This document shows, one piece after another, positions 15,539 to 36,010 of a DNA stretch of 64,000 nt. The first letter of the stretch is position 1; every line of letters begins with the position of its first letter. The translations under genes were made by a program, and so were the position numbers. Under the pieces are notes generated by a model. That model was not told the origin of the DNA and did not search any database. It saw only the letters and a list, made by a program, of their open reading frames with translations. The DNA comes from Methylophaga nitratireducenticrescens (GTDB lineage: Bacteria > Pseudomonadota > Gammaproteobacteria > Nitrosococcales > Methylophagaceae): NCBI RefSeq assembly GCF_000260985.4, contig NC_017857.3, positions 2,170,001 through 2,234,000 on the forward strand, written 5' to 3'.

Positions 15539-15802
15539 GGGTCTGTTTATCTTTCATAGCCACCACTGCTGGAGGCTATTTTTTTGTCCTACAAGGCGGA
15601 AATGATGCAATGTAGTTGTTCTACATAAGTCATTTTCAACGCCGGAGGGCGGAAAAATAGCCCCAGCCCTGCGGGTTGAGGCTGAAAATGCGCTACTCTT
15701 CGTTGCTCGTCGTTTATTTAGAGTCACTAAACTGCTCTCCTCGCGCCTTGATTAGTGCATTTTCAGTCACAACAGAGGCGGCTATGAAAGATAAACAGAC
15801 CC
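15539..15802. mobile_element. MITE-like repeat inside the peptide ABC operon
   Basis: A 264-bp element with near-perfect terminal inverted repeats of about 27 bp, beginning GGGTCTGTTTATCTTTCAT and ending with its reverse complement. It is flanked by CTAG on both sides, consistent with a target duplication. The inside has no gene. Its right end coincides with the TAG stop codon of the binding-protein gene, and its left end is about 17 bases from the permease start. It belongs to the same family as the repeats near 20664, 25085, 29350, 32176, 35454 and 38726. Confidence 0.85.
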
Positions 15803-17682
15803 TAGCGACTATGCTGCAGTTCGGCCGGGACATATATCTCGACCGGGACACTCATCAGATTCAGACCCAGTGATGTTTTTTCCAGATTGTGAATGCGCCG
15901 GTCAATAAAGGCCATGGTATTGCGACGGAACAGGAAGGTATAAGGCTGATCCTCCACCAGAATTTTCTCTGCCTGATGCCATAACGCCATACGTTTTTGC
16001 TCATTTACCTCGCCACGAGCCGCATCAATGATGGCATCCAGTTCAGGATTTCGGTAATTAATAAAGTTATCGCCGCCTTCAACGGTTTGGCTGGAATGAA
16101 ACATCTGATAGATGTCGATTTCGATACCTGAGGTCCAGGCCAGGGTGATGGCATCAAAGTTTTTCTGTTGGATATTTTCCACCATGACTGACCACTCGGT
16201 AGGATTTGGTTCCATGATAATGCCCGAACGAGCATATAAATCTCTCAAAAACAGTACCATGCGGCGGGTGTCATCACTGTCCTGAAAGTAAGTCAGCGAA
16301 AACTCAAAATTGTCACCATCGGGAGTTTCCAATACGCCATCATTATTGCTGTCCTGAAAACCGGCTTCCAATAATAATTCGCGTGCCTTTTCGATATTGT
16401 AGCCAATTGCTTCATTAGCCTTATCATGCTGAGCCGAGCCTGGCATAAAGGGGCTGGCTGCAGGTTGTCCATATCCCAGAAAAATCTCTTCCAATACCCT
16501 GTCTACATCAGTGAGCATGGACATTGCCATCCGCACCCGTTTATCGGCAAATATAGTCTTCTCACCGCCTCGTTCCTGATTCCAGGCAATAAAACTGTAA
16601 CCCGCGGTGGGGCTCATATATTCAAAATTCTGACTGCGTTCGGTGATGTCTTTGTCATCCAGTAACGTTTGATATTCGCGTGGACGAGCACTGTAGACAT
16701 CAATATCACCGTTACGGAAGGTGGTTAAACGGGCACTGTCATTTTCAATAATTCGCCAGACAATGCGATCAAAAGAAGCACTGACCGGCCCCCAATAGCG
16801 TGGGTTACGTACCAGTTCAACGACACCTGCATCGGGAGACCATCCTTCAGGATTGGCTAAACGAAACGGACCTGAACCAAGTAATAAGCCCCGGCTTTCA
16901 TTAAATGTTTGTGGATCATCGAGAAAACGACCGTAAAAATGCTCCGGCATGATCTGCAGACTTCCAGCCAATTGCAGACTATTGAAATAAGGTTCTTTGA
17001 ACACAAATTCCACATGGTAATCATCCAGCGCAGTGACCCGCTCCATTCGTGAAAGATAAGCACGGCTGCGCGGTGCCGCGATGGCTTCATTCATAATGAA
17101 ATTAAAGGTAAATTCAACGTCTTTGGCGGTTAACGGTTCGCCATCTGAAAAGGTAATATCTCGGCGTAATGCAAAGGTAATCGTTAACCCATCTGCTGAA
17201 GTTGACCAATCTTCAGCCAGTAAGCCATTCCACTCCAGCGTATCGGGATTTCTGACTAATAAAGATTCCAGGACGTATTGTTGTACTTCAGACGAATAGG
17301 CATCAGCAGAGACCAAAGGAGTCAGCGTACGAATGTTGCTGCCAAAAGCCATCATCATCCAGTCACCCTGAGCATAGTCTTCCTGTTCAGCGGCCTGACG
17401 AGCCCTTTCAAACGCATCGGTTTCATTCGAAGCTGATTTTTCAGCATTACTGATGTTGGAACGGCTACTGAAATCAGCCGTTCGCATTGCTTGCTCAAGA
17501 TTACGTAATAAACCACGTGTCGAGCGGATATCCTTGGCCTGCTCTTCCATGATACGGGTCATCTCATCCATCTTGGTCCACTGCCTGTCTATCTGAACCA
17601 TTAGCAGCAGAAACATCACCACGAATAAACTTAATCCCAGCCAAAACCTAAGTTTACTGATACCCGCATTTCCATTTTTCAT
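15802..17682 (-). CDS. Membrane-anchored peptide-binding protein of the ABC transporter
   Basis: A 626-residue SBP_bac_5-family protein that would deliver peptides to the permeases encoded downstream. Residues about 11-29 (LRFWLGLSLFVVMFLLLM) form a membrane anchor without a lipobox or clear cleavage site. A helical, charged coiled-coil stretch (about 33-100) follows, then the binding domain (LTPLVSADAYSSEVQQYVLESL, ITFSDGEPLTAKDVEFTF). Anchoring by an uncleaved helix plus stalk is unusual for Gram-negative binding proteins, which are normally free in the periplasm. The TAG stop is shared with the edge of the inserted repeat, so the original C-terminus might have differed by a few residues. 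Confidence 0.92.
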   Translation of the reverse strand: MKNGNAGISKLRFWLGLSLFVVMFLLLMVQIDRQWTKMDEMTRIMEEQAKDIRSTRGLLRNLEQAMRTADFSSRSNISNAEKSASNETDAFERARQAAEQEDYAQGDWMMMAFGSNIRTLTPLVSADAYSSEVQQYVLESLLVRNPDTLEWNGLLAEDWSTSADGLTITFALRRDITFSDGEPLTAKDVEFTFNFIMNEAIAAPRSRAYLSRMERVTALDDYHVEFVFKEPYFNSLQLAGSLQIMPEHFYGRFLDDPQTFNESRGLLLGSGPFRLANPEGWSPDAGVVELVRNPRYWGPVSASFDRIVWRIIENDSARLTTFRNGDIDVYSARPREYQTLLDDKDITERSQNFEYMSPTAGYSFIAWNQERGGEKTIFADKRVRMAMSMLTDVDRVLEEIFLGYGQPAASPFMPGSAQHDKANEAIGYNIEKARELLLEAGFQDSNNDGVLETPDGDNFEFSLTYFQDSDDTRRMVLFLRDLYARSGIIMEPNPTEWSVMVENIQQKNFDAITLAWTSGIEIDIYQMFHSSQTVEGGDNFINYRNPELDAIIDAARGEVNEQKRMALWHQAEKILVEDQPYTFLFRRNTMAFIDRRIHNLEKTSLGLNLMSVPVEIYVPAELQHSR

Positions 17683-17855
17683 GCTTTATTTGCCTATATC
17701 TCTGTAGATGTACGTTATTTTATTTATTCTGTTCAGCCTGACAGTTTGTAGCGTTACTGTCAGTAGATTTCTACTAAAAATTTAGCTTCACGACATGACA
17801 GTTGCAAATAGAAGTTGGTTCTTATCAGAGGTTAAAAAGGTAACAGATAAATTAT

Positions 17856-18779
17856 CTAATCAAGTTGACCAAGACAAAATTGAATTTCTGCCAGATTTTT
17901 TTCAACACTATTCGTGCCAGCCTGTATCGCTTCAGCTGCACGGTAAAACTCCAGCAAACCAATATGCGACAAACGTGGCTGTAACAACACATCCGGTGGG
18001 TCTCCCGCCATACGGCTGCGGGTAATCCTGTCCTGAGTGATATTGACTGATGCAGCAATTGCGGCAAACATATCCGGTACATCCTCTTTGGGTGTTTTCT
18101 CTTCACCAAAAAGATTACCCGTGTAATTAGTAATAAACTCACCAATCCGGTTACTCAGCAGATTACTGCTTTGATCATTCTTGGGAACCGGAGGATTCTG
18201 ATGCAGATGTTTTCCTAAAATATCGCCATTCAGGTTGACTGCAATCACAATATCAGCCCCCAGTGCGCGGCAGACCGACACCGGTACTGGATTGACTAAT
18301 CCACCATCAATTAACCAACGTCCATGGTGCTTAATGGCTGGAAATAAACCTGGCAAAGAAATAGAAGACCAGACGGCTTCAAGCAATTTTCCTTCAGTAT
18401 TCCAGACTTCCTGACCGGAATGAAGATGGGTCGCTACACTGGCATAACGCGTCGGAAGGTCTTCAATTAATGTGGCTTCATCAGCCACATACTGTCTTAG
18501 GAATTGATGCAACTTATCTTTGTTCACCACGCCGTTAAACGGAAAACCGATATTAAAAAATCGCGCTGTCTCCAGTTTGGTCAGCTTTAACAATCGTTGT
18601 TGCAGATCGGGCAATTTATTACTTAGATATGCTGCCCCAACTAAAGCACCTATTGAAGTACCAACCACCACATCGGGCTTGATTCCTGCCTTTTCGAGAG
18701 CATTTATCACACCAATATGTGTCCATCCTCTTGCTGCCCCACTGCCAAGTGCCAAGCCGATTTTCAACGAATTTTTCAT
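17856..18779 (-). CDS. Patatin-like phospholipase, RssA-type
   Basis: A 307-residue patatin-fold serine hydrolase. The glycine-rich oxyanion motif GSGAARGWTHIGV lies at about 13-25, the nucleophile elbow is GTSIG near 40-44, and the second catalytic residue is in IDGGLVNPVPVS near 157. Together these make the Ser-Asp dyad complete. It lacks a signal peptide and is about the length of E. coli RssA, the closest familiar relative. Its likely activity is as an acyl hydrolase on lipids at the inner membrane face; the physiological substrate is unknown. It stands alone between the ABC operon and a divergent small gene. Confidence 0.9.
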   Translation of the reverse strand: MKNSLKIGLALGSGAARGWTHIGVINALEKAGIKPDVVVGTSIGALVGAAYLSNKLPDLQQRLLKLTKLETARFFNIGFPFNGVVNKDKLHQFLRQYVADEATLIEDLPTRYASVATHLHSGQEVWNTEGKLLEAVWSSISLPGLFPAIKHHGRWLIDGGLVNPVPVSVCRALGADIVIAVNLNGDILGKHLHQNPPVPKNDQSSNLLSNRIGEFITNYTGNLFGEEKTPKEDVPDMFAAIAASVNITQDRITRSRMAGDPPDVLLQPRLSHIGLLEFYRAAEAIQAGTNSVEKNLAEIQFCLGQLD

Positions 18780-18889
18780 TTAATATTCACTTTAAATTTA
18801 GGGGAAAACCGTATTAACATGATGAAAAGGCTAAAGATATATAAATTCCGACCGTTATAACTAAATGACTTGTGTAACCTTAGGTCAAC

Positions 18890-19105
18890 ATGATGGATAT
18901 TTCACGAATTTATCATAACAACTTTTTAATTACCTACAGCACTCAACCGGTTAACCCTGGACAGGCGTCTGCGGAAAAAACCCAGCACACAATTCATGAA
19001 GAGCGAAGGCAGCGTCGTGAACGTCGCAAGCGTAAACAGAAAACGCGGATAGAAAGACGGGTTTCTTCAGAACGCCGGGGCCCTGCGTTTGACGCCAAGG
19101 CTTAA
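18890..19105 (+). CDS. Small, highly basic hypothetical protein
   Basis: A 71-residue frame with an AGG ribosome site about 7 bases before the ATG. Residues about 38-66 are an Arg/Glu/Lys-rich stretch (EERRQRRERRKRKQKTRIER), then SERRGPAFDAKA. It has no hydrophobic core and is probably disordered or helical, possibly nucleic-acid binding. It lies convergent to the RNase J-like gene with only 14 bases between the stops. No family is recognised, so it is a plausible but unproven gene. Confidence 0.45.
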   Translation: MMDISRIYHNNFLITYSTQPVNPGQASAEKTQHTIHEERRQRRERRKRKQKTRIERRVSSERRGPAFDAKA

Positions 19106-19119
19106 ATTCAACTGATGTT

Positions 19120-20514
19120 TTAAAGCTTTTTTAATTCCTTGCGATCAACCAGCCCCCAGCGTCCTGTTTTTACCGCTCCACGACGAATGCCATTAACCGG
19201 CGCTATATAAAACAAATCACCATTCTGTCCCAAAAGCTGTTGTCTCACACCGCTGGCTTTGGCAATTTTGGCATTGGCTTTCATATGCATTAACTCGCCG
19301 TGTACCGGGATCGCACACTGCGGTTGCACCCATTGATACATGGTTTTAAGTTCTTCACTGGCAGGATGTCCCGAGGCGTGAATGGGCAGCGCGCTATTAT
19401 CAATATCAATCACATCAACCTGCATGACTTTAAGCCGTTCTATCAATGTGGCAATCGCCAGTTCATTTCCGGGAATTACTTTTGAACTGAAAATAACAGT
19501 ATCGCCCGGTGATAACTGCATATCCCGAAAACTGTTCAGACTCAGACGATGTAAGGCTGTTCGCGGCTCCCCCTGACTTCCGGTCGCCACCAATAAAACC
19601 GTATGTGCCGGTAAAAAGCCCAAATGTGCTGAATCTACCGACGTTTTTACACTGTTCCATAAACCAACATTTTTGGCAGCCGACACGGTGTTAATTAAAG
19701 AGCGTCCAAGCAGGCCCAAATGTCGACCAGTTTCATCAGCAATTCTTGCCAGGGTATGTAACCGGGCGATATTGCTGCCAAAACAGGCAACCACTACTCT
19801 GCCTTTGGCCTGTTCAACATGAAATTTCAAACCTTTGTATAAATTTGATTCTGATTCTGACCAACCCTGCACATTGGCGTTGGTCGAATCACACACCATG
19901 GCATCAACCTGATATTCAGCTAACTTTTGAAAGGTGCCTGCATCATATGCCGGACCCACCACCGGACCTTTATCAAGCTTCCAATCCGCGGTATGAAATA
20001 CTTTTCCTGCTGCTGTCGAGATAAGCAATGCATAAGGTTCGGGAATTGAATGAGTCAGTTTTAACCACTCCACATGAAATACGCCGATCTGTCGTTTGGC
20101 ATCAGCTTCAACCACAATGACCGGCACTTTATCTGCGAGACCTCGTTCAACCAGCTTGCGCCGTAACATTTCAGCGGTAAATGCCGTTGTATAAACCGGG
20201 CACCGGAAGTATTCCCAAAGATAAGGCACTGCGCCAATATGATCTTCATGAGCATGGGTAATAATCAGGCCATCCAGCTGCTGACGACGGTCAATCAGAA
20301 ATTGCGGATCAGCCATTTGAATCGGTGGGTTTTGGCTATTGATTGATTCACCAAATTCATCCACCTCGGCTTGAAACGTGACACCACAATCGACAATTAA
20401 CCAACGCCCGTTATGTCCATACACATTAAGGTTCATGCCTATTTCGCCACAACCTCCCAGCGGCAGGAACCAAAAATCATCTTTTCCAGGTGTCATCCAG
20501 ACCTCATAATTCAA
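19120..20514 (-). CDS. RNase J-family metallo-beta-lactamase nuclease
   Basis: A 464-residue beta-CASP metallo-beta-lactamase protein. The zinc motif HAHEDHIGAVPYL near residue 86 is intact, with further ligands in THSIPEPYAL and FHTADWKLD. The beta-CASP part shows VACFGSNIARL, VATGSQGEP, SSKVIPGN and the late IPVHGELMH motif. Bacillus RNase J1 is about 555 residues; this form ends soon after the beta-CASP and zinc core and lacks the C-terminal domain used for tetramer formation. Most gammaproteobacteria rely on RNase E, so a short RNase J is noteworthy. It would act on RNA in the cytoplasm if active. Confidence 0.88.
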   Translation of the reverse strand: MNYEVWMTPGKDDFWFLPLGGCGEIGMNLNVYGHNGRWLIVDCGVTFQAEVDEFGESINSQNPPIQMADPQFLIDRRQQLDGLIITHAHEDHIGAVPYLWEYFRCPVYTTAFTAEMLRRKLVERGLADKVPVIVVEADAKRQIGVFHVEWLKLTHSIPEPYALLISTAAGKVFHTADWKLDKGPVVGPAYDAGTFQKLAEYQVDAMVCDSTNANVQGWSESESNLYKGLKFHVEQAKGRVVVACFGSNIARLHTLARIADETGRHLGLLGRSLINTVSAAKNVGLWNSVKTSVDSAHLGFLPAHTVLLVATGSQGEPRTALHRLSLNSFRDMQLSPGDTVIFSSKVIPGNELAIATLIERLKVMQVDVIDIDNSALPIHASGHPASEELKTMYQWVQPQCAIPVHGELMHMKANAKIAKASGVRQQLLGQNGDLFYIAPVNGIRRGAVKTGRWGLVDRKELKKL

Positions 20515-20663
20515 ACGCGTCAGTGTTAAATATTTTCGGTGAAAACAAGTGTTGCTATGAGTGGTAATGTTCTCACCAGTTCATCTTCACTATTTCCATG
20601 GTAGCAGTTGCACTTTTGCAGCAGTATAAATACAGCCAGATAATTCCTTTTTCAAAAGATCTA

Positions 20664-21165
20664 GGGCTTGTTGATCTTTCATCTCCGTCTTTATTGTGAG
20701 CTGAAAAAGCATCAATCAAGGCACGAGGAGTGCCTTTTGTGAGATACATCCCTGTATCTCACCCCATTGGGGCTTGCGCTCAAAAAAGCTTATCTCCATG
20801 GATGGAGTGTATGCAAAAGCAATGTCTGGAACATTGCTTGTCCCGGCGTTTTTGTAGTTATTCTAAATAAACGACGAGCAAAGCTTCCGTATCCTGCTCA
20901 CGCCCCTGACCTACATCCATGTAGGCCACACAGAGTGGCGCTTTTTCAGTCACAACCCGAAGGGCTGGGACTATTTTTGCGGCCGCCTGCGTTGTATGAA
21001 ATACATCCCTGTATTTCACCGCGACGCGGCCAGCTAAGCTGTTCAAATGCGTTCCAGACTTTATTTGTCAATCACTTATCTAGGAAGGCTACAGGGCGTG
21101 CTTTCCGCCTTGTCGGACACAAAAATAGTCGCCAGCAGTGGTGGATATGAAAGATCAACAAGCCC
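20664..21165. mobile_element. Long MITE-like repeat with chained palindromes
   Basis: A 502-bp element beginning GGGCTTGTTGATCTTTCAT and ending in the inverted copy. The left flank is CTA. Inside is a chain of short palindromes centred on ATCCCTG or ATCCATG, such as GAGATACATCCCTGTATCTC and CCTACATCCATGTAGG. It has the same module order as the repeat at 35454-36010, in the opposite orientation. The open frames across it are accidental. It lies upstream of the RNase J-like gene (start 20514) and the oadGAB operon, which diverge. Confidence 0.85.
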
Positions 21166-21477
21166 AAAACCAAAGCCGTCATATTTATATTCCACCAGCG
21201 GCAAAAGCTTTTTGTTATATAAGGTTATCGATTAACTTCTGAAACAAGCCCTACCTCCATTCCGGTTTTAATTGCATTATTGAAGTAGGATTTGCCGCTC
21301 CGGTCGCTAAATGAATCGTGATAGTGAATATGCTTACATCGTTGTTACTGCAGCTTATAAGCAGCATTTGGCATAAAGGAAATATCTGACTTAAATCAAC
21401 AATGCTATACTTTGCGGCTGTTTACAGTTGAATACGCTGCAGGCTTTTAACTATCCAAAAAAATCAGAGGCAAACAG
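21166..21477. promoter_or_regulatory. Upstream region of oadGAB
   Basis: About 310 bases without a gene ahead of oadG. A TATACT hexamer at 21406-21411 is a reasonable minus-10 box. The matching minus-35 is poor (CTGACT about 14-15 bases upstream), so the promoter may need an activator. AGAGGCAAACAG provides the oadG ribosome site. Confidence 0.35.
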
Positions 21478-21768
21478 ATGGAAGAATCCACCCTTATGTC
21501 AGAAGGATTAACGCTCATGCTGACCGGCATGGGTTTTGTATTTGTGTTTTTGACCGTATTAGTGCTGGTAACGACATTAATGTCGTGGATAATTACACGC
21601 TATGAAAAAAGTGTTGGTGCCCTTCCTGCTGAAGGTATTCCGGCCCCAACCGCTGTATTAGGTCGGAATCAGTCAGCGAAGTCCAACCAACAATCCCACT
21701 CTTCTCAGGATTCAACATTACTCACGGTTTTATCCAGTGCAATACACAAATACCGAAAAAACAAGTGA
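21478..21768 (+). CDS. oadG: Oxaloacetate decarboxylase sodium pump, gamma subunit
   Basis: A 96-residue protein with one N-terminal membrane helix (GMGFVFVFLTVLVLVTTLMS, about 17-37) after a short acidic lead, and a hydrophilic tail ending in a basic helix. This is the OadG layout: the gamma subunit holds the alpha and beta subunits together and binds zinc through its tail. It lies 45 bases ahead of oadA in the usual gamma-alpha-beta order. Confidence 0.9.
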   Translation: MEESTLMSEGLTLMLTGMGFVFVFLTVLVLVTTLMSWIITRYEKSVGALPAEGIPAPTAVLGRNQSAKSNQQSHSSQDSTLLTVLSSAIHKYRKNK

Positions 21769-21813
21769 CGCCAAGTCGCTCCATGAATTAGTAGTTTAAT
21801 CAAAGGCCATAAT

Positions 21814-23598
21814 ATGACCGAAGCAAATAAAAAGCTTGGCATTACCGATGTCGTTCTGCGTGATGCCCATCAATCACTTTTCGCTACCCGACTCCGTTTA
21901 GATGACATGCTGCCAATTGCCGACAAACTGGATCAGGTAGGTTACTGGTCAGTCGAAACATGGGGTGGCGCAACATTCGATGCCTGTATCCGCTATCTTG
22001 GTGAAGATCCCTGGCATCGCATCCGCAGTCTTAAGGCAGCCATGCCCAATACCCCACAACAAATGTTACTGCGCGGGCAAAATTTATTGGGTTATCGTCA
22101 TTATGCTGATGATGTGGTGCGTAAATTTGTGGAAAGAGCCAGCATTAATGGCGTAGATGTTTTCCGCGTTTTCGACGCTATGAATGATCCGAGAAACCTT
22201 GAAGTTGCTATCAAAGCCGTTTTGGATAATGAAAAGCATGCCCAAGGCACCATGGCCTACACCATCAGCCCGGTACATGATTTGCAAATGTGGCTGGATA
22301 TGGCAAAACGCATTGAAGATATGGGTGCCCATTCATTATGTATTAAAGATATGGCTGGTTTGCTTAAGCCTTACAAAGCTTATGAACTTGTTAAAAGTCT
22401 TAAGCAAACCATTGATATCCCTATACATATGCAGTCTCACGCGACTACCGGTCTGTCGACAGCCACCATCATGAAATGTGTTGAAGCTGGCATCGATAAT
22501 GTCGACACTGCCATTTCCTCAATGTCGATGACCTATGGTCATTCGGCAACTGAATCGGTTGTAGCCATCTTTGAAGATACAGACAGTGATACCGGTCTGA
22601 ATATCGAATTACTAGAAGAAATCGCTGCGTACTTCCGCGATGTTCGTAAAAAATATGCCAAGTTTGAGGGAAGTTTACGTGGGGTTGATTCACGCATTCT
22701 GGTAGCCCAGGTTCCTGGGGGCATGTTGACCAATATGGAAAGCCAGTTGCGTGAACAGAATGCGCTGGATCGAATGGATGAAGTGTTACATGAAATTCCT
22801 CGCGTGCGTGAGGATCTCGGATTTATCCCGTTGGTAACGCCTACCTCGCAAATTGTCGGTACCCAGGCCGTTATTAATGTATTAACCGGTGAACGTTATA
22901 AATCCATCACCGAAGAAACACAGGGTGTTTTACGCGGTGAATATGGCTCTGCTCCGGCAGCATTTAATGCTGAATTGCAAAAACGTGTGCTTAATGATGA
23001 ACAAGCAATTACCTGTCGTCCCGCCGATTTGCTTGAAGATGAAATGGAAAAGCTGACCAGTGAATTAATCTCACTTGCCGAAACAGAAGACTTTAAACTC
23101 GAAGAAGGTGAAAGGCAGATTGATGATGTTTTAACCTTTGCGTTATTTAATCAGACAGCAATCAAATTTCTTAAAAATCGTGGCAATCCTGATGCATTTG
23201 AACCGTTGCCAACCGCGGAATCCACTCACGAATCCTCCATTCCAGCCAAATCGGCAGGCTCGCCAGAAACCTACACCATCACCGTTAATGGCCAGCAATA
23301 TGTTGTTGAGGTCAATGAAGGTGGTGATATTAGTCAGATTGATAAATCTCAAGCTCCACAGCCTAGCCAACCAGCAGCAAGCGAAGGTGTTGCGGTAAAA
23401 GCACCATTGTCCGGAAACATCTGGAAAATCATGGTTTCTCAAGGCCAATCGGTTAAAGAAGGCGATGTATTGCTTATCCTTGAAGCGATGAAAATGGAAA
23501 CACAAATAGTAGCCGAACACGACGGCACGGTGACTTCAATCAATGTTAAACCAGGTGACACTGTCAAAGTTGGTGACTCCCTCGTTTCTATCGCTTAA
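21814..23598 (+). CDS. oadA: Oxaloacetate decarboxylase sodium pump, alpha (biotin) subunit
   Basis: A 594-residue cytoplasmic subunit. The carboxyltransferase barrel occupies about 1-300 ([16 protein letters not shown] with metal-binding Asp, and [11 protein letters not shown] with metal-binding His). The conserved PYC/OADA domain follows to about 460, then a Pro/Ala/Ser-rich linker, then a biotinyl domain with the biotinylation site EAMKMET (Lys near 560). It moves CO2 from oxaloacetate to biotin, giving pyruvate, and the beta subunit then decarboxylates biotin to pump Na+ out. The domains are complete and end in the typical GDSLVSIA. Confidence 0.97.
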
Positions 23599-23609
23599 GG
23601 GCTACTCTA

Positions 23610-24743: not shown

Positions 24744-24748
24744 TGTTT

Positions 24749-24782
24749 ATTGCCCCCTGAAAGACTTTTTTCAGGGGGCAAT
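24749..24782. terminator. Bidirectional terminator after oadB
   Basis: A perfect 14-bp stem (ATTGCCCCCTGAAA and its complement) with a 6-base loop, followed by TTGTTT on the plus strand and by A-rich DNA on the other side. It ends the oadGAB transcript and overlaps the stop codon region of the opposing small gene. Confidence 0.85.
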
Positions 24783-25103
24783 TTGTTTACCTTTTACAAT
24801 TCTCACTCCCGCAATTTGATTACCAGAACCTCTTATTTCACATGCGTAACCGGCCAACGATGCGTGAGACTCAACCCAGCCTTGCCATTTTTCTCCCTGA
24901 GAATAATCACCCGTTATTCTGCTAAGGCCAAGGCCAAAATGGTGATCCAATTTGATTACCATTTCTTGATAAGTCATACCGGGTTTCACTTGTTGACAGG
25001 CAGAATAAATCTTATCCGTTTCCCAAACGTAATACACGGGGTATAACATCATCAGGACAATTGAAAACTGAAACAATTTAACAAGGGTCTGTTGATATTT
25101 CAT
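24771..25103 (-). CDS. Hypothetical small protein whose start lies in a MITE end
   Basis: About 110 residues if read from the ATG at 25103. A membrane helix (FSIVLMMLYPVYYVWE, about 13-30) is followed by a soluble domain with two Cys (IYSACQQVKPGMTYQEM and AGYACEIRG). The MTYQEM segment recalls small lipoprotein-like domains of the SmpA/BamE type, but the match is weak. The first seven codons lie inside the terminal repeat of the element at 25085-25413. The native 5' end, perhaps with a GGAAAC ribosome site and ATG now beyond the element near 25425-25435, seems to have been displaced. Confidence 0.55.
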   Translation of the reverse strand: MKYQQTLVKLFQFSIVLMMLYPVYYVWETDKIYSACQQVKPGMTYQEMVIKLDHHFGLGLSRITGDYSQGEKWQGWVESHASLAGYACEIRGSGNQIAGVRIVKGKQIAP

Positions 25104-25413
25104 AGCCGCCTCTGTTGTGACTGAAAATGCACCAATCAAGGCGCGAGGAATGCAGTTTGTGAGATACATCCATGTATCTCACCCCATTGGGGCTGACGCG
25201 CAAAAACGCTCCCGGCGTTTTTGTAGTCATTCTAAATAAATGACGAGTAACGTAGAGTGGTGCATTTTCAGTCACAACCCAAAGGGCTGGGACTATTTTT
25301 TTGCCCCACGGCGTTGGAAATGACTTATGTAGATCACTACATCGCATCATTTCCGCCTTGTTGGACAAAAAAATAGCCTCCAGCAGTGGTGGCTCTGAAA
25401 AATCAATAGACCC
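25085..25413. mobile_element. MITE-like repeat at the 5' end of a small gene
   Basis: A 329-bp element beginning GGGTCTGTTGATATTTCAT and ending TCAATAGACCC. The inside shares the ACCCCATTGGGG, GAGATACATCCATGTATCTC and CGTTTTTGTAGTCATTC modules of the longer copies but lacks the central block. The orientation matches the copy at 20664. It split or replaced the beginning of the minus-strand gene at 24771-25103. Confidence 0.8.
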
Positions 25414-25535
25414 TGAATATTTCATGGCCATGTTTCCTTTCATTACGCCATTTTCGAATGTGTTGATTGTAGAGTGAGTCACATTGTTAAAACGTGACCT
25501 AACGATTGTTTTTTACAAAATAACAGGAAACTTCC

Positions 25536-26141: not shown

Positions 26142-26156
26142 AAATTTTCGCTAAAT

Positions 26157-26176
26157 ATATATGGATAAACATATGT
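26157..26176. promoter_or_regulatory. Possible second ArsR site before arsC
   Basis: ATATATG and CATATGT half-sites, 6 bases apart, lie directly before the arsC start. They resemble the dyad upstream of arsR but are less symmetric and differently spaced. The site overlaps where the arsC ribosome site would be, and no good Shine-Dalgarno is seen there. Confidence 0.35.
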
Positions 26177-26177
26177 T

Positions 26178-28695: not shown

Positions 28696-28696
28696 G

Positions 28697-29347
28697 TTAG
28701 CTTGCCTTACGAAACGTCAGGTTATACCGATATGGCCCGGTCAGTGGATGCTGGCCGGGTTTTAAGGTTAATACACCATGATAATATCGACGCGCAGCCC
28801 TGCCCCAGACGATGACATCGCCATGTTCAAGTGGGATACGTTGCTTTGGATCGTTTCTGCTGGCACCACCGAACTGAAAAATGATAGGCAAACCCAACGA
28901 GACTGAGACTATTGGCTGAGAAAAGTCTTTCTCATCTTTATCCTGATGCAGCCCCATCTTGGCCCCGACTTCATATTGATTCATTAAACAAACATCTGGA
29001 TTGAAGTCAGAGAAACCACAACGCTGAGCTGCTGTTTCAGCAAGCTCACGAAAACATTGCGGCATTTCAGGCCAGGCCAAATTTGTCAGTGGATCGATTG
29101 CGGTATATCGATAACCATGGCGATCGGTGTGCCAGCCCACATCACCGCAATTGGTAATTGCTGCCGACATATAAAATCCGCCTGGTGTCTGCATTTTGCG
29201 AAAAGTTGATTGGGCATTAATCTGCTCAATGGTAATTAATAACTGTGACGCTTGTTGAAGCGCAAAACCTTTCAGAAGGTAGACATCCGGCAGGATCTCA
29301 TCACAATCTTTAATGTCATTATCAGTAAATAAATCTGCTGTAATCAT
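28697..29347 (-). CDS. alkB: DNA/RNA alkylation repair dioxygenase AlkB
   Basis: A Fe(II)/2-oxoglutarate dioxygenase that removes 1-methyladenine and 3-methylcytosine damage. The metal site is LHQDKDE (His, Asp), with the distal His and Arg in YHGVL and RYNLTFRKA; IVSVSLGLPIIFQFGG matches E. coli AlkB closely. Starting at ATG 29347 gives 216 residues, the same length as E. coli AlkB, so I take this as native. No ribosome site precedes it because the element at 29350 begins two bases upstream. An ATG inside that repeat end (29368) could add seven residues (MKDQQAL) and now serve as the start. Confidence 0.93.
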   Translation of the reverse strand: MITADLFTDNDIKDCDEILPDVYLLKGFALQQASQLLITIEQINAQSTFRKMQTPGGFYMSAAITNCGDVGWHTDRHGYRYTAIDPLTNLAWPEMPQCFRELAETAAQRCGFSDFNPDVCLMNQYEVGAKMGLHQDKDEKDFSQPIVSVSLGLPIIFQFGGASRNDPKQRIPLEHGDVIVWGRAARRYYHGVLTLKPGQHPLTGPYRYNLTFRKAS

Positions 29348-29349
29348 CA

Positions 29350-29732
29350 GGGCTTGTTGATCTTTCATATCCACCACTGCTGGTGGCTATTTTTGTGTCC
29401 GACAAGGTGGAAAGCACGCCGTGTAGCCTTCCTAGATAAGTGATTGACAAATGAGTCTGGAACGCATTTGAACAGCTTAGCTGGCCGCGTAGCGGTGAAA
29501 TACAGGGATGTATTTCATACAACGCAGTCGGGCGCAAAAATAGTCCCAGCCCTTCGGGTTGTGACTGAAAAAGCGCCACTCTGTGTGGCCTACATGGATG
29601 TAGGTCAGGAGCGTGAGCAAGATGCGGAAGCTTTGCTCGTCGTTTATTTAGAATTACTAAACTGCACTTCTCGTGCCTTGATTGGAGCATTTTCAGTAAC
29701 AACAGAGGCGGCGATGAAAGATAAACAAGCCC
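29350..29732. mobile_element. MITE-like repeat between ogt and alkB
   Basis: A 383-bp element with ends GGGCTTGTTGATCTTTCAT and its inverse. The right end coincides with the TAG stop of ogt and the left end abuts the alkB start, so it seems inserted into an ogt-alkB operon. It contains the GAAATACAGGGATGTATTTC and CCTACATGGATGTAGG palindromes. Flanks are TCA on the left and TAG on the right. Confidence 0.85.
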
Positions 29733-30271
29733 TAGGCCAACATCAATCGCTCACGGCGTAACAACGCTTGTTTACTCTCTACTCCCCAACGATAACCGGA
29801 AATTGCACCATCTTTGCGAATCACGCGGTGACACGGGATGATAACCGCAATATTATTGGCTCCACAGGCACTGGCAATGGCTCTTACAGCACCGGGATTA
29901 TGCAGTTTTTCAGCAATATCGCTGTAACACACTGTTGAACCCACCGGTATTTCCAGTAAGGCTTGCCAGACTTGTTGTTGAAAAGGTGTGCCTCGCAGAT
30001 CCAGATTAAAATCCGTGTTTTTTTGTGGGTTATGAATAATTTCAATCACTTTTGAAAGCGTATTTTTAATCCCATTCCCCCCATCCACACATTTTGCCGT
30101 TGGAAACTGTTTCTGCAAACAGACCATTAGCTCTTTAGCTGATTTGCCCAAGTAAACGGCACAAATACCATTTGCAGATTCACCAACAAGCACATTACCC
30201 ACTGGACTGATACCAATAGCAAAATGAATTTGTTCAAATTCTGGCGTAATGGCTTGCAACCCGTTTGCCAT
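29732..30271 (-). CDS. ogt: Methylated-DNA--protein-cysteine methyltransferase
   Basis: About 179 residues from the ATG at 30271, which has AGAGGA at good spacing; a GTG at 30292 is less likely. The suicide acceptor site is IIPCHRVIRKDG near residue 147. The helix-turn-helix DNA-binding part is GTPFQQQVWQALLEIP. It repairs O6-methylguanine by taking the methyl group onto its Cys. It resembles the C-terminal half of Ada without the AraC-like N-terminal part, so it is not itself an adaptive-response regulator. Its stop is shared with the edge of the repeat. Confidence 0.93.
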   Translation of the reverse strand: MANGLQAITPEFEQIHFAIGISPVGNVLVGESANGICAVYLGKSAKELMVCLQKQFPTAKCVDGGNGIKNTLSKVIEIIHNPQKNTDFNLDLRGTPFQQQVWQALLEIPVGSTVCYSDIAEKLHNPGAVRAIASACGANNIAVIIPCHRVIRKDGAISGYRWGVESKQALLRRERLMLA

Positions 30272-30436
30272 AATTGAATGTCCTCTGTTCACTTAATACT
30301 CACCTTATCTTTTTTAGATTACATTTATTAGGCTTAATTCCTTCGTTAGTTTTACAGTCAGGATTTTGCCGATGCAGATAGTCTAAAATTCCATTAAGCT
30401 ATATCATATATATAGGAAATTTTCCTGGAAAATATT

Positions 30437-30844
30437 ATGAAAAAATTAATTCTGCTTTTACTCTGTTCCCCAATGCTGGCAAATGCTGGGGCGATCTCTC
30501 AGTTAGGATCAGGTGATCCGTTAAAACTGGTTTATCAGGAAATGCTTTACCAATATCAGGTTGGCTTGGAAATACATCAATTATATGACTTCAAGCAGCC
30601 AATGGATGTGATGCAATGCAAAAATCAGTATGGGTATATTCAAACCCGCGCTCGCTCAATGGTTGGTACAGCAAATCAGGTTGAAGAAGAAATCCGAAGT
30701 GATGTCATCGATGCGGCCTGGTTTGCATTAAACTGTTCACGATGTGGAAGTGCTGAAGATAGTTGTGATCCTGTTCCAGAAAAGTTGGAGTTACTTAAAT
30801 CACAACTCGAAGCCAAACAAAAAGCCAAAGCTGAACAGCAATAG
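30437..30844 (+). CDS. Exported hypothetical protein
   Basis: A 135-residue protein with a signal peptide (KKLILLLLCSPMLANAG, cleavage after ANA). The mature part is helical and has four Cys (MQCKNQYGY, LNCSRCG and DSCDP), likely forming disulfides in the periplasm. A lysine/glutamine-rich tail ends the chain. The ribosome site GGAAAAT is well placed. No family is recognised. The flanking gaps of about 145 and 217 bases suggest an independent transcript. Confidence 0.65.
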   Translation: MKKLILLLLCSPMLANAGAISQLGSGDPLKLVYQEMLYQYQVGLEIHQLYDFKQPMDVMQCKNQYGYIQTRARSMVGTANQVEEEIRSDVIDAAWFALNCSRCGSAEDSCDPVPEKLELLKSQLEAKQKAKAEQQ

Positions 30845-31061
30845 CTAATAGATGGTTTTGTAGTTAAGTACTGGGTCTTTAATTCCCGTTTCTCATGCTG
30901 GAATGTTACCGCTTATAGCAGCGGCTAATTCACATAAAAGTTATTTCAGTTTAAATCGAACTTCCAGACAGAGTTAAACTTGTTATTAACGTCTTCCTGC
31001 AAGGGCTTCTTTTCAAAGGATTATCCATTCAACTCCTTTCACCATTATTTCAGAGGTACTT

Positions 31062-32159
31062 ATGAGCCAATTAGCGGCGATTGATTTATTATCTCCTATT
31101 AAAATTGGGGATCTTTCACTGAAGAACAGAATGGTCATGGCACCATTAACCCGCAACAGAGCTGGTGAAGGTTTAGTACCAACTGAAATGAATGTTACTT
31201 ATTATCAGCAACGTGCCAGTGCCGGTCTGATTATCAGCGAAGGATCACAAATTGCAGATGATGCCTTGGGCTATCCGCTGACCCCCGGAATTCATAATGA
31301 CGAGCAAGTAAACGGCTGGCGAAAAGTAACGGATGCCGTGCATCGTGAGGATGGTCTTATTTTTGTGCAACTCTGGCATTGTGGTCGGGTTTCACATAGC
31401 TCAATGCTGCCAAATGGTATGAAACCGCTGGCACCTTCTGCCATCAAACCAGCGGGTGAAGTCTATACCTATGAAGGCATGAAACCCTATGAAACACCCC
31501 AAGCTATAGAAACAAGCGACATCCCACGGATTATTGAACAATATCGTCATGCAGCCTGCTGTGCGGTTGAAGCCGGTTTTGATGGCGTTGAAATTCACGC
31601 GGCCAATGGTTATCTGCTGGATCAGTTTCTCCGGGATGGAAGTAATAAACGTGATGATCAATACGGTGGCAGTATTGAAAACCGCGCGCGATTAATTATG
31701 GAAGTCACTGCGGCAGTATGCGAAATATGGGATCCCAAAAAAGTGGGGATACGCCTCTCCCCGCTGCAGCCATTTAATGATTTATATGATTCCAATCCCG
31801 AGGCGACTTTCAGTTATATGGTGAAGGCGCTCAATAAATTTGGACTCGGTTATCTGCATGTTACTGAAATGGGCGCTGAAACTCCTGGTGCTGCCGGCCC
31901 TCATTTTGATGTCAGCTCTTTGCGTAAATTATGGAATGGTCTTTATATGACCAACAGTGATTATGATTATGCATCTGCTAACAAAGCCCTGAAAGATGAC
32001 AAAGCTGATCTGATTTCGTTTGGCAAATTGTTTATCGCTAATCCGGATCTTCCTGAACGTTTTGCCAAAAATGCTCCTCTGAATCAACCGGATCCAGACA
32101 GTTTTTATGGTGGTGATGCAAAAGGTTATATCGATTATCCTTTTCTTGAACCGATATAA
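31062..32159 (+). CDS. Old yellow enzyme family alkene reductase
   Basis: A 365-residue FMN-dependent TIM-barrel reductase of the NemA/OYE class. It starts LLSPIKIGDLSLKNRMVMAPLTR. The substrate- and flavin-binding stretch VQLWHCGRVSH has Cys at the position where many members have Gly or Ala. GVEIHAANGYLLDQFLRDGSN is the family signature, and SFGKLFIANPDLPERF closes the FMN phosphate site. It reduces activated C=C bonds, nitro groups or nitrate esters with NAD(P)H. The physiological substrate is unknown. Confidence 0.93.
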   Translation: MSQLAAIDLLSPIKIGDLSLKNRMVMAPLTRNRAGEGLVPTEMNVTYYQQRASAGLIISEGSQIADDALGYPLTPGIHNDEQVNGWRKVTDAVHREDGLIFVQLWHCGRVSHSSMLPNGMKPLAPSAIKPAGEVYTYEGMKPYETPQAIETSDIPRIIEQYRHAACCAVEAGFDGVEIHAANGYLLDQFLRDGSNKRDDQYGGSIENRARLIMEVTAAVCEIWDPKKVGIRLSPLQPFNDLYDSNPEATFSYMVKALNKFGLGYLHVTEMGAETPGAAGPHFDVSSLRKLWNGLYMTNSDYDYASANKALKDDKADLISFGKLFIANPDLPERFAKNAPLNQPDPDSFYGGDAKGYIDYPFLEPI

Positions 32160-32175
32160 ATTTATTTTTCCATCC

Positions 32176-32302
32176 AGTGTCTGATGATCTTCCATAACCG
32201 TCCCTGTTGTCACTGAATGCACCACTCAAGGCGCGAGGAATGCCATTTGTGAGTTGGAAAAACAGTTTCCAGCAGTGGGGGTGATGAAAGACAAGCAAAC
32301 CC
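32176..32302. mobile_element. Short degraded MITE-like repeat
   Basis: About 127 bp with decayed ends (GTCTGATGATCTTCCAT on the left, ATGAAAGACAAGCAAACCCT on the right). It keeps only the outermost modules of the family, with the inner part deleted. It lies just after the old yellow enzyme gene. Confidence 0.65.
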
Positions 32303-32540
32303 TAAAAGCCGGCTATGCTGGTTTTTTTATGCATGGCTTTTAATTTATGAAAAATATCACTTACAGTTAAATCAACAGACAATCGACTGAATGGGTATGT
32401 AATAATTGAACTTATAGTTATTCCAACTGTGTTGAAAATGACTTATGCAGGATGGCGACATCTCTCCATTTCTGCCGTGTTGGAAAAAGTCTCGCCTCCA
32501 GCAATGGTAGCTTTAAAGATAAACAGACCCTCGGTTTAAT
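32303..32540. mobile_element. Second MITE remnant before the antiporter gene
   Basis: From about 32428 to 32532 the sequence matches the half of the repeat family ending ATAAACAGACCCT, with the GACTTATG and CCTCCAGCA modules. No matching left end is seen, so it is a truncated copy. The rest of this 238-base gap shows no gene. The antiporter ribosome site lies within or right after the remnant. Confidence 0.55.
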
Positions 32541-34247
32541 ATGGATTTTATCAATACACTTTTTCTACTCGGCGGCCTGCTTATTTCCTTAAGCATTCTC
32601 GGCAGTCGTCTTTCATCAAAGTTTGGCCTGCCGTTACTGATTATCTTTTTAGCCCTGGGCATGTTGGCTGGTGAAGAGGGTGTTCTGGGAATTCAGTTTG
32701 ATGATTACTCCCTGGCTTTTCTGATTGGCCATCTTGCTCTGGCGATGATTTTGCTGGATGGTGGATTACGTACCCGTTTAAAAACCTTCCGTGCCGGCTT
32801 CAAACCAGCACTTTCCCTTGCGACATTAGGTGTTTTACTAACCAGTGGCAGTATCGGCTTTCTGGCAATGTGGATATTTGATCTCAAGCTGCCTGAAGGG
32901 TTATTGATCGGCGCCATTATCGGTTCAACCGATGCGGCTGCGGTATTTTCCATGCTTAGCGGACGAGGAATAAACCTGAATGAACGGGTTGGTGCCACCT
33001 TGGAAATTGAATCCGGCACCAATGATCCTATGGCGATTTTCCTGACCATTATGCTGGTCGAGTTAATGACTGGTGAAATCGGCGGTGCATGGGAAACGGT
33101 CTTATTTTTATTCCAGCAATTCGGTTTTGGCCTGCTTATCGGTATCGGTGGTGGCTGGCTAATTGCAAAATTGCTCAACTGGATGGATTTAGCGCCGGGA
33201 CTCTATGCCATGTTGGCTCTGGCCCTGGGTTTCAGCGTATTTGGTTTAACCGGAGTCATTGGTGGAAGCGGTTTTCTAGCCATTTATCTCTGTGGTTTGA
33301 TGATCGGTAATCAACCAGGTCGTCATTTAAACTTTATTCTTCCTGTACATGATGGTCTGGCCTGGCTCAGTCAGATTGGTTTATTTCTGATTTTAGGTTT
33401 GCTGGTCAATCCAAGTGATTTATTGCAATACGCTCTGCCCTCACTGGTTATCGCATTGGCATTGATTTTTGTCGCCAGACCAATCGCGGTATTCCTGTCA
33501 ATCAAACCTTTCTTTCGTTTTCGCTGGCGTGAACTGGGGTTTATTTCGTGGGTAGGTTTACGTGGAGCGGTGCCCATCGTATTGGCTATCTTCCCTGTGA
33601 TTGGTGGAGTGGAAAATGCCTCGTTGTATTTCAATGTTGCGTTTGCTGTCGTTTTACTCTCACTGCTAATTCAAGGCAGCACCCTGTCACTAATGGCACG
33701 CTGGATGCGGGTAGAGGTTCCGATAGGTATCAGACCAAATCATCAGGGAGCCTTGGGCATTTTGCCGACAAATGATTATGAAATGTTCGTTTATCGGATT
33801 GAGAACGAACAACTTGATGGTCAGCAGATCCGCTTACTGCGTTTCCCTTCTGGGACCTTGATATCGGCATTATTCCGTAATAACGTGATGCTGCATCCCA
33901 AAGGCAGTACTGAACTGAAGTTGAATGACACCATTTGTGTGATAAGTCGCAATGAAGATTTGGATGCACTGAATCAAATCTTTAGTGGTCATTCAAAGCT
34001 GAAAAATCGTGAGGCATTTTTTGGATCATTTACGCTGCGAGGCGATGCCTTATTATCAGATGTCGCAAAAGCCTATGGACTGGTTATCAGTTCTGCTGAA
34101 CATGGTATGACATTAAGCGACTTTATTTCCCGTCGGGTCGGTGGGCATCCGGTAGTGGGTGATGATGTGGACTGGCATGGCATTCATTGGGTGGTCAATG
34201 AGGTAGATGGCGATAAAATCATTAAAGTGGGTCTCAGACTTTACTGA
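32541..34247 (+). CDS. Potassium/proton antiporter (NhaP2/CvrA-like)
   Basis: A 568-residue CPA1-family antiporter. About 12 membrane helices span residues 1-390, with the ion-binding region GAIIGSTDAAAVFSML and ESGTNDPMAIFL. A TrkA-C domain (about 400-475, NEQLDGQQIRLLRFPSG) and a C-terminal transporter-associated domain (about 490-565) follow. This domain order matches NhaP2 of Vibrio and CvrA of E. coli, which exchange K+ for H+ and respond to cytoplasmic nucleotides through the TrkA-C part. It is convergent with marC with no bases between the stops. Confidence 0.92.
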   Translation: MDFINTLFLLGGLLISLSILGSRLSSKFGLPLLIIFLALGMLAGEEGVLGIQFDDYSLAFLIGHLALAMILLDGGLRTRLKTFRAGFKPALSLATLGVLLTSGSIGFLAMWIFDLKLPEGLLIGAIIGSTDAAAVFSMLSGRGINLNERVGATLEIESGTNDPMAIFLTIMLVELMTGEIGGAWETVLFLFQQFGFGLLIGIGGGWLIAKLLNWMDLAPGLYAMLALALGFSVFGLTGVIGGSGFLAIYLCGLMIGNQPGRHLNFILPVHDGLAWLSQIGLFLILGLLVNPSDLLQYALPSLVIALALIFVARPIAVFLSIKPFFRFRWRELGFISWVGLRGAVPIVLAIFPVIGGVENASLYFNVAFAVVLLSLLIQGSTLSLMARWMRVEVPIGIRPNHQGALGILPTNDYEMFVYRIENEQLDGQQIRLLRFPSGTLISALFRNNVMLHPKGSTELKLNDTICVISRNEDLDALNQIFSGHSKLKNREAFFGSFTLRGDALLSDVAKAYGLVISSAEHGMTLSDFISRRVGGHPVVGDDVDWHGIHWVVNEVDGDKIIKVGLRLY

Positions 34248-34892
34248 CTATAATCCAGCATAAATCTCCAGTACGCCATTGATGACAAACTGCACAGCAA
34301 TGACCGAAAGAATAATGCCAAAAATTCGGGTAATTATTTCTTTGCCGGTTTCTCCCAGATAACGCACCAGAAAATGTGAGTACACCATTGCCAGATAACA
34401 CGAGCCTGTGGTCAGCATAATCGCTGCAAACACCACAATTAAATGCCAGGCTGTTGGTGCCTCACTGGTCAAAATCATCACCGTGGCAATGGCTCCCGGT
34501 CCGCTCATAAATGGAATTGCTAACGGTATCACCGATATGTCCTTGGCAATTTTGCCTTCTATTGCCGGATCCGATGCACTGCTGGTCTCACCTTCATCCA
34601 GTCCCTTGTGAATCATGCTCATCGCAATACCAAATAGAATCAGGCCACCAGCAATACGAAACGCCTCAATGGTAATACCAAATATCTTGAAAATAAGACC
34701 ACCCAGTAAGGCAAAAACAAAAAATACGCCGGTAGCAATCAGGCTAGAGCGTTTAGCAACTGCCTTACGGGTGGTTTCTGAAGTACGAGGCAACAGCGAT
34801 ACAAACATAAATGCCGTTGTTAATGGATTCACAATGACAAACAATGCGGCAATCGCGATGATCCAATAATCAAATAAACCAATTGCATTCAT
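34248..34892 (-). CDS. MarC family membrane protein
   Basis: A 214-residue inner-membrane protein with six hydrophobic helices. Family features are the start FVIVNPLTTAFMFVSLLP, the middle PLAIPFMSGPGAIATVM and the end FGIILSVIAVQFVINGVLEI. MarC proteins were once linked to multiple antibiotic resistance but that role was not confirmed, so the function is open. The gene's stop adjoins that of the antiporter. Confidence 0.9.
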   Translation of the reverse strand: MNAIGLFDYWIIAIAALFVIVNPLTTAFMFVSLLPRTSETTRKAVAKRSSLIATGVFFVFALLGGLIFKIFGITIEAFRIAGGLILFGIAMSMIHKGLDEGETSSASDPAIEGKIAKDISVIPLAIPFMSGPGAIATVMILTSEAPTAWHLIVVFAAIMLTTGSCYLAMVYSHFLVRYLGETGKEIITRIFGIILSVIAVQFVINGVLEIYAGL

Positions 34893-34989
34893 ACTATATC
34901 CACTTAAACAAAACGCTATGTTCGCATAAATATGTTTTCCGTATTATCTTGTTGCTCAATTAATGCAGACAGACTTTCAATCCGTTTTT

Positions 34990-35439
34990 TTACTCGTCCT
35001 GAAGATCGTTTATCAGCACTTTCATCTCATCAATTTCCCGGCGTTGCGCTTCAATAATTTCATCGGCCAGTTGACGTACTCGTGGATCACTAATCTGTGC
35101 TCTTTCGCTGGTCAAAATTGCGATCGAGTGATGTGGAATCATGGCTTTCATATAAGACACATCATCAACCGTGGTTTGGCTCCTTACCAGCCAGAGTGAG
35201 CCCGCAAAAATCACAATACTGACAAGATAAATAATGATATTAACCGCGATATTGGAATACATATGCAGCATAAAGCTCAACATCACTATTGCCATGGTTG
35301 CCCCCATAATGAGAGCCATATAGCTTCGGGTTTCACTAAAAAACGCATGATCAGCCTGATAGGTATTAAGGTACATTAAACCGAACATCACCAGAGTGGA
35401 TGTCAGGATCATGGCAGCAAATCTTCCATACATTTTCAT
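34990..35439 (-). CDS. DUF305 membrane protein
   Basis: About 149 residues from the ATG at 35439, preceded at 8 bases by AGGAG. There are four membrane helices in the first 100 residues (FAAMILTSTLVMFGLMYLN, YMALIMGATMAIVMLSFML, then two more), and a C-terminal soluble part with the DUF305 signature MKAMIPHHSIAI and RQLADEIIEAQRREIDEMK. Such proteins are often near copper genes and the His pair may bind metal, but no copper gene is adjacent. The Shine-Dalgarno touches the end of the element at 35454, so its original promoter was displaced. Confidence 0.85.
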   Translation of the reverse strand: MKMYGRFAAMILTSTLVMFGLMYLNTYQADHAFFSETRSYMALIMGATMAIVMLSFMLHMYSNIAVNIIIYLVSIVIFAGSLWLVRSQTTVDDVSYMKAMIPHHSIAILTSERAQISDPRVRQLADEIIEAQRREIDEMKVLINDLQDE

Positions 35440-35453
35440 CAGCATCTCTCCTA

Positions 35454-36010
35454 GGGCTTGTTTATCTTTCAGAGCCACCACTGCTGGCGGCTATTTTTGT
35501 GTCCGACAAGGCGGAAAGCACGCAGTGTAGCTCTTCTACATAAGTGATTGACAAATGCGTCTGAAACGCATTTGAACAGCTTTGCTGGCCGCTCAGCGGT
35601 TGAAATACAGGGATGTATTTCATACAACGCAGGCGGCCGCAAAAATAGTCCCAACCCTTCGGATTGTGACTGAAAAAGCGCCACTTATGTCCACGGATGG
35701 ACAGGCCGCTATCGCTATCCCTGCTACCACGGCATTCGGGCATCCTTGCCCATCATATGCCGGCGCGCCAGGGAGGTGCGCGCCGGTCTGCGTTTCTCGT
35801 CGCTTATTTAGAATAACGACAAAAACGTCAGGACAAGCAATGTTCCAGACATTGCTTTTGCATACACTCCATCCATGGAGATAAACGTTTTTGAGCGCAA
35901 GCCCCAATGGGGTGAGATACGTGGATGTATCTCACAAAAGGCGCTCCTCGTGCCTTGATTGACGCTTTTTCAGCTCACAACAGAGGTGGAGATGAAAGAT
36001 AAACAAGCCC
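35454..36010. mobile_element. Longest MITE-like repeat, upstream of the DUF305 gene
   Basis: A 557-bp element with ends GGGCTTGTTTATCTTTCA and its inverse, flanked by CTAG on both sides. It has the same module order as the copy at 20664, inverted, plus a GC-rich insert near 35695-35800 (GGCGCGCC and GTGCGCGCC) absent from the others. Palindromes such as CTCCATCCATGGAG and GCAATGTTCCAGACATTGC are present. No gene. Confidence 0.85.

Follow-up and report, generated by a model that had tools for sequence, protein, structure and literature searches.

A dispersed family of modular miniature elements with IS5-type ends and outward start codons in Methylophaga nitratireducenticrescens

A stretch of 64,000 nucleotides from Methylophaga nitratireducenticrescens (here called the window; positions 2170001-2234000 of the 3.135-Mb single-contig genome, labelled G000) contains several short repeats with common ends, and raises the question what these repeats are, what moves them, and what becomes of the genes they reach. 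We consider it very probable that they are miniature inverted-repeat transposable elements (MITEs) with ends of the IS5 type, which insert at YTAR with TA as the duplicated part, carry interchangeable nested modules, and possess outward ATG codons that can replace the starts of neighbouring genes.

The initial annotation described one family dispersed through the window, and this is confirmed by the search for its end pattern GGGYYTGTTKATCTTTCAT, which with at most three mismatches gives 16 matches, whereas 100 shuffled sequences give 0.09 on average and never more than 1. Fifteen of the 16 belong to five copies (E1 to E5) and to remnants; the sixteenth, at 48319 with three mismatches, starts an ordinary open reading frame (ORF) at 47333-48346. 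The copies are E1 at 15539-15802 (264 bp, plus strand), which is a core element without modules, E2 at 20664-21165 (502 bp, minus), E3 at 25085-25413 (329 bp, minus), E4 at 29350-29732 (383 bp, plus) and E5 at 35454-36010 (557 bp, plus), where strand means the orientation with arm 1 first, a convention of our own. End matches further reveal a decayed remnant at 32177-32302 (126 bp, minus), a one-ended remnant at 32428-32530 (plus) with its end at 32512-32530, and a decayed copy with remains of module M1 at 38727-38936 (210 bp, plus).

A genome-wide count of the ends, as the initial annotation had suggested, finds 99 at no more than one mismatch and none for the reversed pattern; they fall into 67 places, one of which is the end of an insertion sequence (IS) copy. 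The remark that eight copies in 64 kb are dense did not hold: counted in the same way the window has five places (about 1.4 expected) and another 64-kb stretch has six. Because the densest 64-kb stretch reaches at least five in 88% of simulations with random placement, the density of the window is unexceptional. For the description of whole elements 68 stretches were fetched around end matches, E5 matches and two transposase relics, and ends were paired allowing up to four mismatches. This led to 53 candidates, from which 2608737-2609635 (899 bp, hardly alike) was dropped in all counts; ends without a partner were not scored as elements. The 52 remaining copies are 46-613 bp long. End-bearing genomes amount to 15 of the 38 searched, G000 included, and all lie within the same genus, with 61 ends in G016, 93 in G017, 79 in G021 and 22 in G020. 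Certain sizes recur across species among 124 distinct elements, namely 263-266 bp (56 times), 330-331 bp (8), 316 bp (3), 82 bp (5), 57-58 bp (7) and 45-46 bp (6). No Pfam family matched those ORFs of 100 aa or more in E2 to E5 that were scanned. The repeats thus are a MITE family, being short, without a transposase gene, bounded by terminal inverted repeats, accompanied by a TA duplication and present in many polymorphic copies.

The target can be read from the flanks. TA is kept on both sides of 24 of the 52 elements, in 20 of them as YTAR; with complements merged the sites are CTAA/TTAG in nine cases, CTAG in six, TTAA in five and others in four. Insertion at YTAR duplicates TA; a four-base duplication of CTAG could not account for the targets other than CTAG. 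That two copies are flanked by CTAG, as first noted, is correct insofar as E1 and E5 both have CTA before and TAG after the element, but this is better read as TA duplication within a YTAR target. Empty and filled sites are found among the relatives. In G017 (as CTAG), G020, G016 and G018 the E1 site has no insertion, and in G021 it is filled with 263 of 264 bases identical; the E2 site is empty in G017, and the E4 site is empty in G020. Side by side with this we note that matches of at least 300 bp break off at E5 with a fetched stretch of G017 and at E2 with contig C41 of G021, which could be due to rearrangement between copies or to assembly breaks at repeats.

Read outward, the ends give ATG AAA GAT MAA CAR RCC C-TA R, the hyphen standing for the junction, and this frame avoids the TAG that is otherwise formed there. 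ATG comes first in 102 of 131 end matches of the fetched sequence, with a search pattern that itself favors ATG. The second outward frame is closed by TGA and the junction TAG; the third is open and was taken as control. In three genes, gluQ, trmJ and the gene at E3, comparison of loci shows that a MITE landed in the first codons and left its own ATG as the likely start. The names gluQ and trmJ, as well as cydD and its cydB-like neighbour below, are those which we take these genes to have; Pfam assigns the first to tRNA-synt_1c and the second to SpoU_methylase, while the cydD-like gene has nothing above the cut-off. Among 20 loci, gluQ starts with MNS(V/D)LT in G021, G017, G016 and G020. In G000 the corresponding ATGAATTCAGACTTA is cut off beyond the far side of the element, the gene runs from the MITE ATG as MKDQQALISPHY, and there is no ATG, GTG or TTG from the junction to IGRFAPSPTG. 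For trmJ (23 loci) the other 22 have an ATG a few codons ahead of the conserved (I/V)RF(V/I)LVG and no MITE end within 66 bases before this motif; G000 reads MNDKKTLDK, with ATGAAG beyond the far side of the element. The third case is a minus-strand gene of 110 aa at 24771-25103, in whose first codons E3 lies. Most of its 20 loci begin MK-x-LV(K/N)L, whereas G000 and G017 have MKYQQTLVKL, the first residues MKYQQT coming from the MITE end, and a native-like ATGAAATAT stands beyond the far side. The gene begins with MKYQQTLVK in G016 and MKYQLILVK in G020, both element-free, so that each has three extra in-frame codons. These codons may be a scar, as expected from a deletion between two ATGAAATAT repeats.

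The same tendency appears in numbers. At the 104 ends of the 52 elements (the ordinary gene start at window position 48319 being excluded) the ATG frame is open for at least 60 codons 15 times and the control frame never. YTAR sites near gene starts in the window that hold no element divide 63:69 between the two frames, and compared to these the 15:0 of the element ends has a Fisher P of 4e-5; unoccupied sites inside genes divide 212:209. In the relatives the ratio of ATG to control frame is 19:5 of 147 ends (P 0.007). Nine of the 15 look like genes: gluQ, trmJ, a cydD-like gene, DUF2835, Memo, a 2OG oxygenase, DUF305, a 113-aa protein at 533983, whose ORF is the same in G016, G017 and G021, and the E3 gene. 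The 2OG-Fe(II) oxygenase gene (28697-29368, minus) shares its frame with the ATG in the left end of E4; immediately beyond the element it also possesses an ATG of its own. As an observation in its own right, a 127-bp copy at G000:C1:1900541-1900667 stands between the cydB-like and the cydD-like gene; its left edge forms the TAG of the first and its ATG is in frame with the second.

A mechanism that would account for this begins with an IS5-type transposase of the DUF4096 kind, which could move the MITE in trans into a YTAR target and duplicate TA. If a copy inserts among the first codons of a gene with YTA read as a leucine codon, the gene would stay in frame with the MITE ATG. Insertions of this frame may survive and those of the other frame may be lost; the excess of the ATG frame would then be caused by selection, and translation would start from the MITE ATG. 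A number of points speak against this picture and have to be kept in mind. In the relatives five of the 147 ends have a long ORF in the control frame, and among the 19 of the ATG frame are orthologs of G000 cases, one scar in G016 that lacks the element, and ORFs that run off the end of a locus. Six of the 15 ORFs in G000 show no evident homology, and the one of them checked against Pfam had no match. Memo, the 2OG oxygenase, the DUF305 protein and the 113-aa protein have a methionine of their own further in. A search around the gluQ copy found neither a sigma-70-like promoter nor a terminator. A preference of insertions for stop codons was also considered and rejected: the junction TAG ends an ORF of 129 codons or more in 12 of 52 elements compared to 23 of 156 non-coding YTAR sites, which is not clearly enriched. 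The TAG at the right junction of E1, for instance, is the stop codon of a minus-strand ORF of 626 aa (15802-17682).

It could be argued that the excess reflects where YTAR lies relative to genes and that no rescue by the MITE ATG is involved. At YTAATG sites the target itself indeed places the native ATG in frame, as at the E4 site of G017 (TAATGCAT). The unoccupied sites of the window are balanced, however, both near starts and inside genes, and a native ATG (gluQ, trmJ) or native-like ATGAAATAT (E3 gene) is left beyond the far side of the element, so that we regard this explanation as unlikely.

The probable replacement of start codons by the MITE ATG concerns the ends; the interior of the elements is the second variable part of the family. 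E1 and another core element of 265 bp fold into an outer stem formed by the terminal repeats and two hairpin arms. Into this core six optional modules, which we named M1 to M6, can be set, each at a fixed junction: arm 1 takes M1, arm 2 takes M2, M3 and M4, and M5 lies within the M4 loop. M6 was found in two cases, both together with M4. E2 contains M1, M3, M4 and M5, E3 contains M4, E4 contains M1 and M3, and E5 contains M1, M2, M4 and M5. Among the 81 elements (of the 124 distinct ones) that have both arm markers every pair of M1 to M4 shows all four combinations, and M1 to M4 assort independently; M5, present in seven elements, never occurs without M4 among the 124. Differences are also found at single sites. 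The 66-bp M4 of E3 is absent from the ortholog in G017, and at the E4 site, where G000 has M1 and M3, the element of G017 measures 265 bp and has neither; E4 resembles a mosaic made from two subfamilies. Further same-site differences in length or content between species are found at the G000 sites 1543776, 1627448, 1206154 and 2646937, and the lengths in G000 and a relative are 55 and 264 bp (G016), 58 and 265 bp (G001), and 162 and 330 bp (G017). In our reading the modules M1 to M6 are gained, lost and reassorted between copies at fixed junctions. Such differences most likely arise by exchange between copies, through recombination or conversion. One pair stands apart: the elements at G000:C1:688860 and in locus L250 of G017 share the site, differ in length and have 59% identity in register; they are perhaps in opposite orientation, by inversion or independent insertion.

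The hairpins of the modules resemble each other at their tips. The longest copy (613 bp) contains nine perfect hairpins with a stem of at least 5 bp and a loop of 3-7, eight of them in modules. GGA stands in the loop region of seven of these eight, in five on the strand with arm 1 first and in two on the other, compared to 15% in shuffles; the eighth overlaps an arm of the M1 hairpin and has no GGA, and the core contains the ninth, with TCC at the edge of its loop. The hairpins of M5 are oriented the opposite way, and its CTGGA hairpin lacks the leading A. Near the center of hairpins with stems of at least 7, ANGGA or TCCNT occurs in nine of 29 distinct element hairpins compared to 11 of 132 controls, some of the latter being 5S-trailer or stray copies of modules. 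In M1 there is ATACAGGGATGT, which agrees in full with the E. coli CsrA consensus RUACARGGAUGU given in PMC6692469, where CsrA/RsmA sites are described with A_GGA in the loop, and csrA is present in G000. Module M5 is also found 3' of 5S rRNA genes, twice at each of two, once in the outer stem that surrounds it in the MITE and once in another, together with more GGA-loop hairpins. Separately, we observed that the 5S trailer at L118:1201-1753 and the same stretch of L132, both in G000, combine GGA-loop hairpins with repeats of the 5S 3' end (AAGTAGGTCA), and that these loci agree at 99.9% along 1610 bp, part of the 23S and the 5S included.

One might propose from these motifs that the modules are mobile CsrA-site cassettes, spread with the MITE start codons beside or into genes, with copies acting as CsrA targets or as a sponge. 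If this were true, newly captured genes could come under the control of CsrA. We consider it unlikely, since common descent of the modules may be all that lies behind their likeness, and the loop forms the center of a near-palindrome. CsrA/RsmA hairpins and the modules are alike in their NGGA loops; in contrast to the former, the module hairpins lie on both strands and the core shows no strand-specific conservation.

The common tip, the differing stems and the presence of M5 next to 5S rRNA genes might also suggest a RAYT/Y1 transposase as the mover of the modules, which would then be hairpins of the REP kind. This is quite improbable, as PF01797 at E<=0.001 has no match in G000, although 15 of the 24 genus genomes do match.

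The folds of the elements deserve a discussion of their own, because they might suggest functional RNAs or terminators that were dispersed otherwise than by transposition and kept for their structure. They are very stable, with z from -9.5 to -12.3 in five folds, E5 on both strands included. In 52 core elements of ten genomes 96.9% of the cells are paired and 30 of 76 pairs have two-sided changes; none of 500 shuffles was as high, and slid versions gave 38.7-48.1%. Some same-site pairs are moreover more alike than their flanks, E1 with 99.6% compared to 91-93% and the element at 533983 (with L290 of G016) with 99.2% compared to 84%. The reverse holds at 1357595, with 92.8% compared to 97-98%, and we thus rejected conservation above the flanks as a sign of selection. 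The covariation does not single out one strand. The mean difference in minimum free energy between the strands is -3.0 kcal/mol (standard deviation 8.9), the plus strand is more stable in 33 of 57 cases, and strand-specific RNA conservation was looked for in the core elements and not found. The cell counts of 254 GU and 199 AC are to be read in the same way: an excess of GU seen at first was due to the folding of one strand only. As both strands pair about equally, covariation alone is no argument for RNA; palindrome correction or DNA hairpins would suffice for the covarying pairs. Together with the empty sites, the TA duplication, the matching IS, and Rfam searches that gave no family above the cut-off in the window and only chance-level matches in L117, this makes a purely RNA-based explanation distinctly improbable.

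We return to transposition and to the enzyme that may be responsible. The initial annotation named an IS5/DUF4096 transposase as likely mobilizer, and this is supported by matching IS ends together with the empty sites. PF13340 has nine matches in G000, two of them in the window relic. An intact ORF of 282 aa at G000:466066, in an IS whose left end begins at 465960, is an IS5-family DDE transposase: it matches NF033580 (transpos_IS5_3, E 6e-81) above the cut-off and has the domains PF13340 (DUF4096) and PF01609 (DDE). Of the 19 positions in the MITE pattern, 18 are matched by the left end of this IS. The closest named relative of the protein is in Methylophaga sp. OBS4 (82%), where a complete IS of 882 bp has identical 17-bp ends, CTA being followed by GGGCCTGTTGATCTTTG at one side and CAAAGATCAACAGGCCC by TAG at the other; these perfect ends have 16 bp in common with the MITE. 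A scan of 15 of the 80 fetched loci with related transposases (L037 was skipped) shows ends of the same kind in IS relatives of other Gammaproteobacteria: 14 of the 15 (OBS4 included) carry ends of the TGTTGATCTTT type, mostly beside TAG or CTAG; in L192, the fifteenth, end repeats were looked for and none was seen. An intact DUF4096 ORF in G000 with one matching end, a complete IS in OBS4 and empty sites were thus all found.

The window itself has an IS5/DUF4096 relic on the minus strand at 8615-9204, with two blocks homologous to the ORF-intact IS (91% and 92%) that span 8615-9196, a deleted middle and an outer end reaching 9204; its DUF4096 match (E 3e-7) is under the curated cut-off. It had been placed at 8418-9204 with MITE-type ends, of which the end at 9204 is good, while GGGCTTGTTTATC at 8418 is doubtful and lies about 200 bp outside the homology.

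Mobilization in trans by this transposase, which would link IS and MITE, has its difficulties. The right end of the ORF-intact IS in G000 is damaged, with AAAGATCAATAGCGGC before TAG; the similarity to the MITE is limited to about 16-18 bp at the ends and the interior of the MITE is unrelated to the IS. The IS protein has a match in 4 of 24 genus genomes and none in G016, G017, G020 and G021, which carry the family, so that the source there would be lost, divergent or absent from the assemblies. An IS630-type or other TA-duplicating transposase, to which the element RUP, tied to IS630-Spn1, offers a precedent with its TA targets (consulted text of PMC2229807), is very improbable in view of the match of the MITE ends to IS5/DUF4096 in G000 and OBS4 and the same end type in 14 of the 15 tested IS relatives. 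Apart from this, a different IS5-type element is present in six copies at G000:C1:523329, 945718, 1493190, 2851759, 2881845 and 2896475; the copy at 1493190, for which ORFs were listed, is laid out as two ORFs, and convincing ends of the MITE type were not seen.

Elements of this general kind are already known: MITEs whose ends derive from an IS, as well as TA targets, internal inserts and fusions with ORFs, are described in PMC10969869, PMC2229807 and PMC6382973. MITEAba12 of Acinetobacter is, like the present family, short and non-coding with terminal repeats common to a co-resident IS, ISAba12, and start codons with a few further codons at its termini were noted as allowing fusions; it differs in its nearly uniform length of 111-114 bp and its 9-bp target duplication, and nested modules or displaced native starts do not appear for it in the text examined (PMC6382973). 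Rickettsia palindromic elements are likewise palindromic repeats in frame with host genes, but they are read through within proteins, (PMC10969869 and PMC2229807), whereas here the element stands between a gene and its native start and offers another in its place. According to the same parts of PMC2229807, Correia/NEMIS (107/155 bp) is a MITE with a length variant through one internal insert and with ORF fusions, and RUP has TA targets as here but belongs to IS630-Spn1, not IS5. The IS5-family DUF4096 elements of marine Gammaproteobacteria share the transposase family and the TGTTGATCTTT-type ends; they are autonomous and have only about 16-18 bp in common with the MITE, and ISSod6 appears only as the annotation of a distant plasmid match to the IS. 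No description of this MITE family was found in the searches of open-access literature. As far as this literature was searched, the family itself, its nested interchangeable modules and the comparative evidence of displaced starts are new.

The family provides a worked before-and-after example, with gluQ and trmJ, of a bacterial transposable element that displaced the start codons of conserved genes, and one gene, that at E3, apparently keeps extra in-frame codons after loss of the element. The MITE as a tree of interchangeable hairpins that covary on both strands is also a case in which selection for structure can be weighed against palindrome correction or conversion. If MITE ends serve as ready-made starts, the annotation of N-termini such as MKDQQT and MKDKQA in this genus would have to be altered.

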